Assembly: GCA_938005475.1 (NCBI GenBank)
Contig: CALLNY010000014.1
Coordinates: 1-64,000 of the forward strand
Origin: an uncultured Bacteroidia bacterium
Lineage (GTDB): Bacteria; Bacteroidota; Bacteroidia; J057; CALLMJ01
Direction: 5' to 3'
DNA: 64,000 nucleotides
Shown: one piece after another, positions 40,731-52,591 of the stretch
Layout of the letters: the number at the start of each line of letters is the position of its first letter
How positions within the stretch are numbered: the first letter of the stretch is position 1
Position numbers and translations under genes: made by a program
The notes under the pieces: generated by a model
The model's database searches: none
Told to the model about the DNA's origin: nothing
What the model saw: the letters and a program-made list of their open reading frames with translations, nothing else

Positions 40731-42890
40731 TTATAAATTTTTTAAAATAAACTGAGTAAGCTTAGTATATAGATGGTACCTAGTAACTCCTCCATATATA
40801 CCATGGTTCCTATTAGGGTAAAAAAATTGCTCAAATTGTTTATTATTTTTAATCAAAGCATCTACCATCTCCATGGCATTCTGAAAATGTACATTATCAT
40901 CTGCTGTACCATGAACAATTAAATAATTTCCTTTTAATTTATCTGCAAAGTTAATGGGAGAATTTTCATCATAGCCCGTCGGATTATCTTGAGGTCTTTG
41001 TAAATATCTCTCCGTATAGATGGTATCGTAAAATCTCCAGTTCGTAACAGGTGCTACCGCAATACCAGCTTTAAAATATTCATTTCCTTTTGTTAAACAT
41101 AAACTGGTTAGATAACCCCCAAAAGACCAACCCCAAATGCCTATTCTCGTCTTATCTACATATTTTAATGTACCTAAATACTTTGCTCCTTCTATTTGGT
41201 CTATGGTTTCTAATTTACCTAGTTGTTTGTAAGTGCATTTTTTAAAAGAAGCGCCCCTTGCTCCCGTACCTCTATTATCAATAGAAACAATAATATATCC
41301 TTGACTTGCCAACATCTGATACCAGAAAAAATTGGTTCCATTATATCTGTTGACAACGGTTTGGTGTCCTGGACCTCCATAGCAGTACATCAATACAGGG
41401 TATTTCTTATTTTCATCAAAATTTACAGGCTTTATCATCCAACCATTTAGTTCTACTCCTTCTGATGTCTTAAATCGAAAAAATTCAGGATTACTAATTT
41501 CATAAGTCTGTAATCTTTCCTTTAACTCTTGATTGTTTTCAATTTCTTTTACTAACTTGCCTTCTATGGTCATTAATTTAGTAACGGGGGGAATATCCAT
41601 TTGGCTATAAGTATCAATGTAATAATTAAAAGCAGAAGACAAGGTAATACTATGATTGCCAGGCTCAAAACTTAATCTCTTTTTATTTTTTCCGTTGATT
41701 CCAATTTGGTAAAAATGCTTTTCTAATGGACTAACCTCCGAAGATAAATAATATATCATTTGTTTTTTATTATCAACCCCTAAAATCTCTTGCACCTCAA
41801 AATTGCCTGTTGTAATTTGTTTAATCAGTTTGCCGTTCAGGTCATAATGGTAAATATGATTGAACCCATCTTTTTCGGAGGTCCATAAAAATTCTTTACC
41901 ATTTTCCAAAAAGAATAACATATAATCAGTAATTTCTATATAAGTATCTGATTTTTCGGTTAGTATGATTTTATGAGAACCATCCGTAGTATTACACAAA
42001 AGCACCTCTACATGGTTTTGTAGGCGATTCATTCTCAAAACTGCAAGTTGTTCAGAGGAATAGGTCCAACGGATACGTGGAATATAAATATCTTTATCAT
42101 TGCCTAAATCCATCGCAGACAAAGACTTATTTTCTAAATCATAAACATAAATAGAAATTTCAGAATTTTTTTCCCCTGCTTTGGGGTACTTAAAACGTTC
42201 TTGTTTGGGATATAATTCACCATAAATATCCATAGAAAATTCAGGAACTTGAGATTCATCAAATCGGTAGAAAGCTATTTTTTTTCCATCAGGAGACCAT
42301 TCAAATGCTTTTGTAAAACTAAATTCCTCTTCATAAACCCAATCACATAGTCCATAAATAATTTTATTTTTTTCGCCGTCCTTAGTTATCCTTGTAATTT
42401 CTTTTGTGATGATGTCTTGAATATATAAATTGTTTTCATAAACAAAAGCCACCTTTCGATTATTAGGTGATAAAGTGGCATGTGACACGAGTTTTCCCTC
42501 AAAAATATTCAAAAAATTTTGGGTTTTGAGGTCTAAAATGGTAATAACTTCTTTGGTGGAATGTCTATAAATAGGTGTAACATTGCTTTTAAGAAGTAGA
42601 ATATTTTCGTCTTGAGAGAACTCATAATCTTGAATTTTTGAAGGAAAAGACCCCTTGAAATTAGATACGTCTAAAATAATTTCTTTAAAGTTTTTGTCTA
42701 AAACATTGTATTTAAATAGTTTATTTCCATTGGATAGCCCTGTATAAAATTTATCATCTTTCATCCATCGGAATTTCTCAACTTCGGCAGGATAGAACTT
42801 GTATTCTATCCAAATGTCAGATAACGTGATTTGCTTTTTTTGAGCAAGAACCGAAGAGTAGATAAGAACAATAAAAAAGTATTTTTTCAT
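40731..42890 (-). CDS. Dipeptidyl-peptidase IV-like S9 family peptidase
   Basis: 'GLCDWVYEEEFSFTKAFEWSPDGKKIAFYRFDE', 'GIWGWSFGGYLTSLCL', 'HGTADDNVHFQNAMEMVDALI', 'NRNHGIYGG'. Confidence 0.95.
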   Translation of the reverse strand: MKKYFFIVLIYSSVLAQKKQITLSDIWIEYKFYPAEVEKFRWMKDDKFYTGLSNGNKLFKYNVLDKNFKEIILDVSNFKGSFPSKIQDYEFSQDENILLLKSNVTPIYRHSTKEVITILDLKTQNFLNIFEGKLVSHATLSPNNRKVAFVYENNLYIQDIITKEITRITKDGEKNKIIYGLCDWVYEEEFSFTKAFEWSPDGKKIAFYRFDESQVPEFSMDIYGELYPKQERFKYPKAGEKNSEISIYVYDLENKSLSAMDLGNDKDIYIPRIRWTYSSEQLAVLRMNRLQNHVEVLLCNTTDGSHKIILTEKSDTYIEITDYMLFFLENGKEFLWTSEKDGFNHIYHYDLNGKLIKQITTGNFEVQEILGVDNKKQMIYYLSSEVSPLEKHFYQIGINGKNKKRLSFEPGNHSITLSSAFNYYIDTYSQMDIPPVTKLMTIEGKLVKEIENNQELKERLQTYEISNPEFFRFKTSEGVELNGWMIKPVNFDENKKYPVLMYCYGGPGHQTVVNRYNGTNFFWYQMLASQGYIIVSIDNRGTGARGASFKKCTYKQLGKLETIDQIEGAKYLGTLKYVDKTRIGIWGWSFGGYLTSLCLTKGNEYFKAGIAVAPVTNWRFYDTIYTERYLQRPQDNPTGYDENSPINFADKLKGNYLIVHGTADDNVHFQNAMEMVDALIKNNKQFEQFFYPNRNHGIYGGVTRYHLYTKLTQFILKNL

Positions 42891-43561
42891 ACGTTATTTT
42901 GTTTCTGTTGTTTTGCTAATTTTTTTTCAGATAAATAGGTAGTTATAATTGGAATGACAGATATTATAATAATCAAAAGTATCACAAAATGAATATATTC
43001 TTTAATTCCAGGAATCCATTGCACTAACAAATAACCTGCGGTTAGCATGCTGGTAATCCATAAAATACCTCCCGATATATTATAAAAAACAAAAGTTTTG
43101 TACTCTAACTTAGCAACACCCGCAATCATGGGAGCAAAAGTCCTTACTATCGGGATAAACCGACCTAAAATAATAGCTTTGCCGCCATGTCTATCATAAA
43201 ATTCTTTAGTTTTCTGAACATATTTAGGTTTAAAGAACCATGATTCTTCGCGTGTAAATAACTTTTCTCCCATTTGTTTGCCGATATAATAACCTGTTTG
43301 GTCACCGATTATTGCCGCAAAAATTAAGCTAATCAATAGTACAGGAAAACTAACTTCTAAAACCCCAGAAGAACAAAGTAAACCTGCTGTAAATAACAAA
43401 GAGTCTCCTGGAAGAAAAAATCCTATCATAAGACCCGTCTCTGCAAAAACTACTAACACCAAAGTAATTAAACCGCCCTTCGCTAAAATTTCAGGATTGA
43501 TTAAATCCTTAAAAAAATAATACCACTCTATCAAAAAATCCATACCGCAAAAATAGAACAT
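42887..43561 (-). CDS. DedA family membrane protein, copy 1
   Basis: 'FAETGLMIGFFLPGDSLLFTAGLL', 'GDQTGYYIGKQMGEKLF', 'GGKAIILGRFIPIVRTFAPMIAGVAKL'. Confidence 0.93.
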   Translation of the reverse strand: MFYFCGMDFLIEWYYFFKDLINPEILAKGGLITLVLVVFAETGLMIGFFLPGDSLLFTAGLLCSSGVLEVSFPVLLISLIFAAIIGDQTGYYIGKQMGEKLFTREESWFFKPKYVQKTKEFYDRHGGKAIILGRFIPIVRTFAPMIAGVAKLEYKTFVFYNISGGILWITSMLTAGYLLVQWIPGIKEYIHFVILLIIIISVIPIITTYLSEKKLAKQQKQNNV

Positions 43562-46401: not shown

Positions 46402-47424
46402 TTAAGATAAATCAAATAAATTAGGTTTATTAAGATTAGCATAAGGTTTATTAAGGTGCTGATAGGCAAGGAGGGTAGCTTCTCTACCGCGAGGGGTTCT
46501 TTTGATGAGACCTTGCATGATTAGGAAGGGTTCATAAACTTCTTCAATGGTTTCAGGGTCTTCACCACAAGCGGTAGCAATGGTAGTCAAACCGACGGGT
46601 CCACCTTGAAATTTATCGATGATGGTAGTTAAGATTTTGAGGTCCATTTGGTCGAGACCTAAGGAGTCAACTTCTAGTGCCTTCATAGCAAAGAGAGTTA
46701 TTTTCGTATCGATGATACCGGAGCCTTTAATTTCTGCGAAGTCACGGACACGTCTTAGTAATCGATTGGCGATTCGTGGTGTTCCTCTACTTCGGATAGC
46801 AATTTCATAGGCGGCGTTCTCTTCAATAGGGATATTAAGGACTTTTGCGGAGCGTTCAATAATTTTTTGGAGGTATTCAGGTTGGTAGTATTGTAAACGA
46901 GCATGAATACCAAAACGTGCAAGCAAAGGAGCCGTGAGAAGCCCAGCGCGTGTAGTTGCCGCAATTAATGTAAAAGGATGGATAGTAATTTGAATACTCC
47001 TTGCGTTAGGTCCGGATTCTACCATAATATCAATATGAAAATCCTCCATGGCTGAATATAAATACTCTTCAACGATGGGACTTAAACGATGAATTTCATC
47101 GATAAAAAGTACATCAAAAGGTTCTAGGTTAGTGAGTAGTCCTGCCAAATCGGCAGGTTTTTCTAATACGGGTCCGGAGGTAGTATGGATGTTCACGCCG
47201 AGTTCGTTTGCGATGATGTAAGATAAAGTGGTCTTTCCGAGCCCAGGAGGTCCATGCAAAATCACGTGGTCTAATGCTTGCTTACGCTTCTTTGCCGCTC
47301 TAACAAAGACTTCTAAATTTTCACGTAGCGAATCTTGCCCTGTAAAATCTTGAAAAGTCTTCGGTCTCAATACAATTTCTTCATTATCACTATACTGTGC
47401 TTCTAAATTTTCATTTCGCGGCAT
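46402..47424 (-). CDS. ruvB: Holliday junction branch migration helicase RuvB
   Basis: '[58 protein letters not shown]', '[23 protein letters not shown]'. Confidence 0.98.
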
Positions 47425-47426
47425 AA

Positions 47427-48854
47427 TTATACTTTATTCCAACCTTTTTTTACGTTTTCTGTAATGAAATCCTTATAAATTTGATAAATCTGCTCCTTAC
47501 TATTAGAAACTTTTACTTCTATGTCAAGTTCTCCAGATTTACGACCAGGGCTATAGTCTGTAAAAGTGGCTACGTAGGCAGGATAAATACCAGAATCTTC
47601 TTTATTTGTTTTCCATAAAAGAAATTTACGAACCGCCTTGATGCCTTTGGTTTCTTTTACATACACTGCTCGTTCTAAAAGTTCTGATTTTTCAAATTTT
47701 AAGTTTCTTTGTTCTAAGGAGGGAAGTTCTAACCAATCCGTAATTTGTGACAGCCTTAAATCAGTAGGATTAACAGCCTTATCATCTCTTATTCTTTCAA
47801 AAACAGGACTAATAACACTGAATGCAGGTATCCTATGAATAAGCTTATAACCTTCTATATCGTCAAATTGTAATATGGGTTTAAAAATATAGGGTTCTTC
47901 ATGCGTTTCCGTGATGGCATCTAAAAAACCTATTTCTACGACAATTTCAGGTTTAACAAATTGAATAGCAATCCCTGATTTTACGGTCTCTAAATATTCA
48001 CTATCTACTTGATAAAAGCGAAGTTTTTCAAAAAGACTTTTGCGAGTATCCGAGTTGAAACCTGTACCTACTTTGGCAAAAGGTAAAAATTTACCTTCTT
48101 CCAACATTAAAGCTACTAGTACATCCAAGATTTCACCTTCCTCTTTATCAGATTCCGCATATCCTATTATAACAGCATCTATCGTGTGATAAGGTTTGAT
48201 TTTATAAGCGAAATTTTCCGCAGAGCGAATTACTAATCCCTCATTGCCCTCTTGTTGTACCCATTCCTTAAAGTAATGTTCAATTTCTGTACGAGACTCA
48301 ATTTTTTGATGCTTGGGAATATTAACTTTTGAACCTTTACCAAAGATTTTATTCAGCTGATTAAATAATAAATCGGCTTTTTCGAAGTATCTATTATCCT
48401 CTAATTGGTAAATATCAAAAACAGAGATATGAATTTTTTCTAAATCTTTTTCGCTATCGGGAGAATCTAAAATTTTGGTAACCTCAAAAGAACGCGGTCT
48501 TGGAGAGTTTACATAAACTTCACAAGCGAAATATGCTCGGTTTATTTTATTTTTTGTCAGGGATTCTTGTATTTCTTTCAGAACAGGTAAACCCAAACGT
48601 ACTTTACCACGTGGGTTCACCAAAAAACATTGTTCATCTTCCCAGAACAACATATAAAAATGCCCATCAATTTTTTGCGAAATATAGTAATATTCCGAAC
48701 TTAAAATATGGATTGCTTCATGTATAGGCACAGAACGATACCTAGAAGCAACATTTTTTTTGTAATTAAGAGTAATTTTATGGTATTCTGTGTTTTCTAT
48801 TGTCCCGAAACAATAGTCTCCAAAACTAACCTGTAACTTTTTGATATCAATCAT
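47427..48854 (-). CDS. ATP-dependent DNA-ligase-like protein (NTase + OB core with N- and C-terminal extensions)
   Basis: Motif I '[12 protein letters not shown]' (KxDG), 'FACEVYV', 'VFDIYQLE', IV 'EGLVIRS', V '[17 protein letters not shown]', OB '[16 protein letters not shown]', '[10 protein letters not shown]', VI-like '[19 protein letters not shown]'. Confidence 0.82.
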
Positions 48855-49551
48855 TGGGAAGTCCTTTCAGTTCAATATTGGATAAATGCAAAATTAAGAG
48901 ATATTTATCTTCTTGTATACGACCTTCCAAGAAACCTCTATAAGGTTTACCATTATTTGACAAAATTAAAGGTGCTCCTTTGTTATCTGCTCCGATAAGC
49001 ATAAGGGCATTTTTTTCGTGTAATTGCTTTGCCATGTCATACAAAAAATCAAAAGTAATACCACTAGAATGTTTAAGTTGGTATTTACGAACAAAAACAA
49101 ATTTTTTGATAGCTTCTGATTTAGGAATAAATTTACCTGTCCAGATTAAAGGTTTTCCTTCAACGGCAATATTAGCAAACACTTCTTCTGGAATTTTTTC
49201 TTCTATAGGTTCATCTTTTGGGTTGTATCTAATCTCACGAATGCTAACATGATGAATGATTTTTTGTTCTGGGTTTACTAAAATTTTGAAAGTATGTTTT
49301 AAAAATCTACCTGTCAACTCTAAATTGATTTCAGGGTCTTCGTTGATGAGAGCCTCTGCGAGAGCATTACCATCACCATATCTTTCTTTTAATTTGGATA
49401 AAGCTTCTTGGTTGGTAAATTTTACTACTTTGTAAGTATGAACTTTTTGTTTATTAGGGGTTAAGAATTGCCAACGCTTTGGGGCCAAAGTAAAATCTAA
49501 TTTAACAAAACTATCTCTTTTTTTTTCGTTTGAAATATGAATATTTCTCAT
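48847..49551 (-). CDS. Unrecognised protein coupled to the ligase-like gene (longer start at 49602 possible)
   Basis: Long ORF 'MRNIHISNEKKRDSFVKLDF...', 8-nt overlap with ligase-like gene; no family recognised. Confidence 0.75.
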   Translation of the reverse strand: MRNIHISNEKKRDSFVKLDFTLAPKRWQFLTPNKQKVHTYKVVKFTNQEALSKLKERYGDGNALAEALINEDPEINLELTGRFLKHTFKILVNPEQKIIHHVSIREIRYNPKDEPIEEKIPEEVFANIAVEGKPLIWTGKFIPKSEAIKKFVFVRKYQLKHSSGITFDFLYDMAKQLHEKNALMLIGADNKGAPLILSNNGKPYRGFLEGRIQEDKYLLILHLSNIELKGLPND

Positions 49552-49621
49552 AGACTTTGACAAAAAGAAATTTACAGATAAATAGAAAAAAAACCTTCCC
49601 ATGGAAGGCAGTTAAAAAAAG

Positions 49622-49969
49622 TGGAGATGGTGGGACTTGAACCCACGTCCGGCGAAGCTAAAAGTATAACTTTCTCCATGCTCAGTTATTTGTTCTATTT
49701 CGGTTTTTCATACTACAAATAACAAAAGTATTTCAAACCTAGCTCTTTGAGAGTTTAAGTAGTATGAAGAGCATCTACTACCGAGGCAATGTCAGCGATG
49801 TCTAAAAGAAACCCATTGCCCAATTTCTAATAGACATTAGCCGCAGTTAGGCAGCTAAAGAATAAGAAGTATTGCCGTTTATGGCTGATAGCGTTTTTGA
49901 AAAGTGTTGCTATCATCACTTTGCATGCTTGTTATACCTCTAATCAACCCGTCAATTCCATTCATCCCC
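49622..49969 (-). ncRNA. ssrA: tmRNA
   Basis: 5' GGGGATGAATGGAATTGACGGG and 3' GGACGTGGGTTCAAGTCCCACCATCTCCA; 7-bp acceptor stem GGGGATG/CATCTCC; internal tag ORF ending ...YSLAA-stop (49847-49876). Confidence 0.95.
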
Positions 49970-51264: not shown

Positions 51265-51936
51265 TTATGGAATACTTTCAAGGTCTTCAAAAGAGATATC
51301 TAATAATTCGTATTGTTGGTAGTTTTGAAAATCATAATGCCACCATTCGTGTTCATTAGCTTTAAAACCGTGTTTTTCCATAATTCTTTTCAATAAGTTA
51401 CGGTTATTGATAAAGGAACGCTGTACATTGTAGTATTGGTGTGATGCTTTAATGTTAAATTCATCATATTGAGAGGGCATAGGCACTTCTGTAGAGTCTT
51501 CGATATTTACAAGGGTTAAATCTACAGCAGTAGCACGGTTATGAACTGATCCGTAAACGGGGTTCGCAACATAGGGAGAGCCATTAGTCAATTGCCACAT
51601 TTTTCGGGTAACGGAGTAGGGTCTGTAGGCGTCATATATTTTCAAGGAAAGTCCGAGCGGTTCAATTTCTTTTTGAATATTTGTAAGCGCCAATGCAACA
51701 GGAAAACGTGCATAGGCTTTTGCTTTACTGTAAATAGGAAACTTTAAAAAATTATTTGAGGTTGCATAGCGAATATCAATCATAATAGAAGGGCAGAATT
51801 TTTTTATGTCTACTAAGGTTTTACTAGGGTCCTTTTGTATAAGCTTTATATAATCGTTCAACGATGAAACCACATAAGGCTGATGAAAACTGGAAAGTAG
51901 AACGAACACAAAAAAACTAATTATTCTCCATTTCAT
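51265..51936 (-). CDS. M15 family D-alanyl-D-alanine dipeptidase (VanX/DdpX-like)
   Basis: 'IMIDIRYATSNNF', 'IYDAYRPYSV', 'GSVHNRATAVDLTLV', 'NEHEWWHYDF'; signal peptide. Confidence 0.93.
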   Translation of the reverse strand: MKWRIISFFVFVLLSSFHQPYVVSSLNDYIKLIQKDPSKTLVDIKKFCPSIMIDIRYATSNNFLKFPIYSKAKAYARFPVALALTNIQKEIEPLGLSLKIYDAYRPYSVTRKMWQLTNGSPYVANPVYGSVHNRATAVDLTLVNIEDSTEVPMPSQYDEFNIKASHQYYNVQRSFINNRNLLKRIMEKHGFKANEHEWWHYDFQNYQQYELLDISFEDLESIP

Positions 51937-52591
51937 CTTGTGATAAGATTTTTCTTTTTCGGGATTTTGCTCTTTCTTTTAAAAAGGTTCTCATGATAGG
52001 AATGGTGGTAACAATAATCAAAAAGATTATAATGTATTCTAAATAATGTTTAATTTCGGGAACAAAAACTCCTAAAAAGTAACCAATTAAAATTAGAGAA
52101 AAGACCCAGAGAACACCTCCTATAATATTAAAAAAAATAAATTTTTTATATTCGAGGTTAGCAACGCCCGCTAAAATCGGAGCAAAAGTTCTGATGATGG
52201 GTAAAAACCTTCCTAATACTAATGCTTTTCCTCCGTGTTTATCATAAAATTGTTTCGTAAGGGTTACGTACTCGGGTTTAAATAATAAAGATTCTTTTTT
52301 TTTGAATAGAGCTTTGCCCATTTTTTTTCCTACGTAATACCCAAAACTATCGCCCAGAACAGCGGCTGAAGTAACAGCAATTAGGACTGAGACAATAGAG
52401 TGGTCTAAAATACCCGTTGCCGTGAGTAGTCCCGCGGTAAAAAGTAAGGAGTCGCCTGGCAAAAAAAAACCAACCATAACTCCTGTCTCAGCAAAAATAA
52501 CCAAAACCAGCAACGGTAGTCCACCATAATGGATAATGCTCTGTGGATGGGTTAGTTCTTTAATAAAATCAACAACAGTTTCCCAACTCAT
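51917..52591 (-). CDS. DedA family membrane protein, copy 2
   Basis: 'FAETGVMVGFFLPGDSLLFTAGLL', 'GDSFGYYVGKKMGKALF', 'GGKALVLGRFLPIIRTFAPILAGVANL'. Confidence 0.93.
   Translation of the reverse strand: MSWETVVDFIKELTHPQSIIHYGGLPLLVLVIFAETGVMVGFFLPGDSLLFTAGLLTATGILDHSIVSVLIAVTSAAVLGDSFGYYVGKKMGKALFKKKESLLFKPEYVTLTKQFYDKHGGKALVLGRFLPIIRTFAPILAGVANLEYKKFIFFNIIGGVLWVFSLILIGYFLGVFVPEIKHYLEYIIIFLIIVTTIPIMRTFLKERAKSRKRKILSQDEMENN

Follow-up and report, generated by a model that had tools for sequence, protein, structure and literature searches.

Results

A ligase-like gene and its overlapping neighbour lie upstream of ruvB

The window analysed here is a stretch of 64,000 nucleotides from the genome of an uncultured Bacteroidia bacterium (contig CALLNY010000014.1). 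Read along the minus strand, it contains in succession the tmRNA, a gene for a 234-aa protein (hereafter the partner), a gene for a 475-aa ligase-like protein, and ruvB (Table 1). The ORF coordinates bear out the tight spacing given in the original prediction: partner and ligase genes share 8 nt (48847-48854), and the stop codon of the ligase and the start of ruvB are 2 nt apart. The predicted partner ORF likewise exists, but it encodes 234 rather than 235 aa, as the stop codon had been counted. Extending this ORF to its most upstream ATG (48847-49602, minus strand) would yield 251 aa; the shorter version, starting at ATG 49551, is likelier because the protein of a sister species begins at the equivalent ATG. 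Just past the tmRNA, a hairpin that resembles a terminator and carries a run of T was found by eye at 49585-49612, leaving ~35 nt to the partner start. Housekeeping genes surround the pair in both the window and the sister species, namely nusB, ruvB, tmRNA, an hslV-like gene, and the gene of a 4Fe-4S protein. Elsewhere in the window, two similar DedA/VTT-domain-like proteins are encoded on the same strand ~8 kb apart (42887-43561 and 51917-52591).

Table 1. Features of the ligase locus and related loci. Coordinates refer to the window unless a locus (L) is given.
Feature	Location	Strand	Basis or remark
ruvB	46402-47424	-	RuvB_N, E 1.9e-75
Predicted divergent ATP-dependent polynucleotide ligase, 475 aa	47427-48854	-	ORF call; PF04679, TIGR02779, phrog_114, hhalign
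C-terminal extension, residues 360-475	47430-47777	-	No Pfam match above cut-off; strongly conserved with sister species
Nucleotidyltransferase and OB core, residues 52-359	47778-48701	-	Profile alignment; motifs nearly invariant in sister species
Motif VI RIRDDK, residues 354-359	47778-47795	-	
Motif V YKIKP, residues 217-221	48192-48206	-	
Motif IV EGLVIR, residues 205-210	48225-48242	-	
Motif I KIDGHF	48657-48674	-	
N-terminal extension, residues 1-51	48702-48854	-	No domain match above cut-off
Partner protein, 234 aa	48847-49551	-	No significant family match; homologues in L059 and L060
tmRNA	49621-49969		Directly before partner in minus-strand order
Gene X	L059:2-577 (G1099); L060:8303-8602 (G040)		Acidic tail, ends DFGML; two Bacteroidia families
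Unannotated Sulfurospirillum diekertiae ligase relic	L008:5001-5165 and L010:5001-5165		

The 475-aa protein has a ligase core with an altered motif I

By sequence, the ligase-like protein of 475 aa is a divergent polynucleotide ligase of the ATP-dependent type. Profile alignment places the covalent nucleotidyltransferase motifs I, III, IV, V, and VI in the expected order, and all motifs named in the original prediction were located (KIDG at residues 61-64, EV at 112-113, VFD at 145-147, and FAKVGTGF at 259-266, in addition to those in Table 1). The predicted OB fold was recovered by Pfam as PF04679 (residues 242-359; 42.4 bits, cut-off 27.5), whereas the adenylation domain PF01068 matched neither this protein nor any other in the genome. 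The Pfam search also agreed with the claim that a DNA_ligase_A_N domain is missing. Comparison of a two-row profile with LigC/LigD-type domains from sampled Bacteroidota (hhalign) aligned residues 52-368, including motifs I-VI, at 98.7% probability. The top single profile match was phrog_114, a family of phage ATP-dependent DNA ligases (E 2.4e-19, residues 52-299), and the top match in the PDB was the DNA ligase 9fzx (E 3e-05). These similarities show homology with LigC/LigD-type ligases and make a similar mode of action probable. Nevertheless, we class the protein as a divergent variant and not as a member, because it fails both the curated cut-offs of the LigC/LigD type (TIGR02779, NHEJ_ligase_lig: E 1.3e-14, 54.2 bits against a cut-off of 227.75) and their motif I.

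In DNA ligases, the Arg of motif I (KxDGxR) touches the 5'-phosphate of the nick. Of 17 LigC/LigD-type proteins inspected, 16 had a recognisable motif I, each with this Arg, but Phe takes its place in the KIDGHF motif of both the window and the sister species. Ordinary nick sealing should therefore not be assumed. The altered motif, together with sub-threshold matches to PF09414 (RNA_ligase; 17.6 bits, cut-off 27) and, weakly, to PF01331 (mRNA_cap_enzyme), would be compatible with an RNA ligase that acts in RNA repair or processing, for example after ribotoxin cleavage, on RNA recognised by the partner. We consider this unlikely: the OB domain exceeds the cut-off of a DNA-ligase C-terminal domain, the best-matching solved structure and PHROG are DNA ligases, and the genes recognised next to the ligase include no kinase, phosphatase, or methyltransferase.

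The core is flanked by two extensions for which Pfam returned no family (residues 1-51 and 360-475). That they cannot be assigned had been predicted, yet with lengths of about 70 and 80 aa; we measure ~51 aa at the N-terminus and ~115 aa after motif VI. Profile comparison revealed no relationship among the partner, the extensions, and a further gene described below (gene X). AlphaFold2 runs on two-row alignments of ligase and partner reached a pLDDT of 33-34, which makes the models unusable and provides no fold backing for roles of either the extensions or the partner.

The gene pair is maintained under purifying selection

In the sister species (G001, contig CALLMJ010000090.1) the order partner-ligase-ruvB is preserved, with 82%, 76%, and 89% protein identity, respectively. 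All ligase motifs are invariant except for F146Y and one position of RIRDDK. Estimates by NG86 gave dN of 0.16 and 0.12 for the pair against dS of ~1.5-1.6, and dN/dS of ~0.10 for the ligase, ~0.08 for the partner, and ~0.04 for ruvB, with dS near saturation. Given these low ratios, ligase and partner both appear to be functional genes, and the pair is real and under purifying selection. Conservation of gene order, of an overlap, and of the motifs further shows that the observed features are not a chance finding.

Still, the two genes might be unrelated in function and share an operon by chance, with the ligase acting alone like LigC. The overlap, which measures 26 nt in the sister species compared to 8 nt in the window, speaks against this possibility, as does the fact that gene order has persisted although the proteins have diverged by ~24% and a different feature stands upstream of the pair in each species (the tmRNA in the window, another gene in the sister species). 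Evidence in its favour comes from the partner homologues described in the next section, which adjoin a different gene without the ligase; one of their genomes, G040, has no such ligase at all. On balance, we regard a chance association as possible but rather improbable. Since the genes overlap and their order is conserved, partner and ligase probably function together in this genus.

The partner belongs to a candidate new family that also occurs without the ligase

Consistent with the original prediction, the partner had no significant match in Pfam, NCBIfam, PHROGs, PADLOC, or the PDB, so that neither a known ligase accessory family nor any other library family or solved structure accounted for it. 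Phage and plasmid records likewise contained no match. Weak similarities to XPD helicases (PDB), SIR2 (PADLOC), ribosomal L27, and a phage exonuclease were sub-threshold and were rejected. Searching 395 Bacteroidia genomes with a partner profile recovered two nearly full-length homologues, in G1099 (E 1e-59, 42% identity) and G040 (E 5e-57, 39%); additional hits in G1039, G061, and G1149 proved on inspection to be unrelated proteins. The conserved blocks include KYQL.H..G.T.DFLY.MA and K.YR..LEGR. By these alignments, the partner would define a new family, represented in four genomes of Bacteroidia.

Outside the window and the sister species, the pairing was not seen: in the fetched neighbourhoods of G040 and G1099, no ligase of the 475-aa type accompanies the partner homologue, and none was detectable anywhere in the G040 genome (99% complete). 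Instead, both homologues are preceded by gene X, a different gene of no known family that is cut by the contig end in both cases and whose C-terminal parts are ~60% identical between the two genomes. Gene X may be the more usual neighbour of the partner. These observations weaken the idea that the partner is a subunit dedicated to the ligase, and the existence of stand-alone partners argues against an obligate complex. The original prediction had named a lack of co-occurrence in other genomes as refuting evidence, and this partly applies here.

Between gene X and the partner homologue, G1099 encodes a protein of 178 aa that weakly resembles YraN. Two consecutive GmrSD-type genes (PF03235) lie near the homologue in G040 (L060:3480-6633), which suggests that this neighbourhood is rich in defence genes. 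Both features, along with a patchy distribution and a relic on plasmids (see below), might fit an anti-phage or conflict system that mends nucleic acids cut by an effector. However, the pair sits amid housekeeping genes in the window and the sister species, and PADLOC gave no significant match; we consider this explanation quite improbable.

The ligase is restricted to one genus among sampled Bacteroidota

In a search of 22 genomes, none of the others in the order contained the ligase. Wider samples of Bacteroidota gave short matches only, and those inspected were LigC/LigD-like ligases; among sampled Bacteroidota, the ligase is found only in this genus. Scanning contigs with narrow peptide patterns returned the sister species only, which is no measure of distribution. 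Outside the phylum, a decayed ligase relic of 55 aa, 49% identical to residues 180-233, is located on two plasmids of Sulfurospirillum diekertiae, beside transposase genes. The relic suggests the existence of mobile, related ligases beyond Bacteroidota. Phage and viral contigs yielded no relative carrying the ligase extensions or the partner; the pattern hits on viral contigs came from phage ligases of the ordinary kind or from unrelated proteins, and a phage origin was rejected for want of relatives. The pair probably entered the genus by horizontal transfer and would then have settled upstream of ruvB.

Discussion

The genome encodes LigA and has no match to Ku (PF02735), for which a B. subtilis control was positive. 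With LigA present and Ku absent, the ligase probably does not serve as the replicative enzyme, nor does it belong to Ku-dependent NHEJ; it is a surplus ligase outside this pathway, in line with the original view that the locus does not look like a LigD/Ku arrangement. From the LigC/LigD ligase domain (TIGR02779, PF01068 plus PF04679) it has the core, aligned end to end over residues 52-368, the OB domain, and motif VI. It departs from this type by scoring below the TIGR02779 and PF01068 cut-offs, by Phe in place of the KxDGxR Arg, by an insertion before motif VI, by two unassigned extensions, by an overlapping partner gene, and by the lack of Ku in the genome. Phage ATP-dependent DNA ligases (phrog_114) provide its best single profile match, in contrast to the extensions and the partner, for which phage and viral contigs held no relative. 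The operon of Deinococcus DRB0100 offers a useful precedent, albeit with a different domain content. It, too, combines a divergent ATP-dependent ligase-like protein with a multi-protein operon in a genome with LigA and no Ku (PMC1997131). DRB0100 is reported to comprise the adenylation domain only, seemingly without motif V, and to be inactive in ligation, and its operon includes PNKP and a macro-like protein (PMC1997131). The ligase described here, however, contains motifs V and VI as well as the OB domain, and its recognised neighbours include no PNKP.

These sequence comparisons are best read as pointing to a repair ligase in an accessory role, accompanied by a factor for recruitment or specificity. 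Specifically, we favour, at a probability of roughly 0.6, a surplus chromosomal ATP-dependent ligase that serves a Ku-independent repair step, with extensions and partner providing substrate recognition. As suggested by motifs I-VI together with the OB domain, Lys61 would be adenylated by ATP, and AMP would be handed to a 5'-phosphate, followed by sealing of the nick or end. The substrate would most likely be recognised by the extensions and the partner, in place of the DNA-binding domain, Ku, or PCNA employed by other ligases. Given that the partner also occurs without the ligase, it probably has a nucleic-acid-related role of its own. The coupling to ruvB might reflect mere shared transcription. 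A more daring version, which we hold only tentatively and think doubtful, is a two-protein, Ku-independent ligation machine. Here the partner family would recognise nucleic acids, could also serve other effectors (as in G040 and G1099), and would steer the ligase, with its changed motif I, to a substrate outside the standard range.

If the pair does work together, it would constitute an added ligation pathway for bacteria without Ku, and would provide the first functional handle on a partner family missing from every searched library. The changed motif I makes the question of the substrate directly testable.
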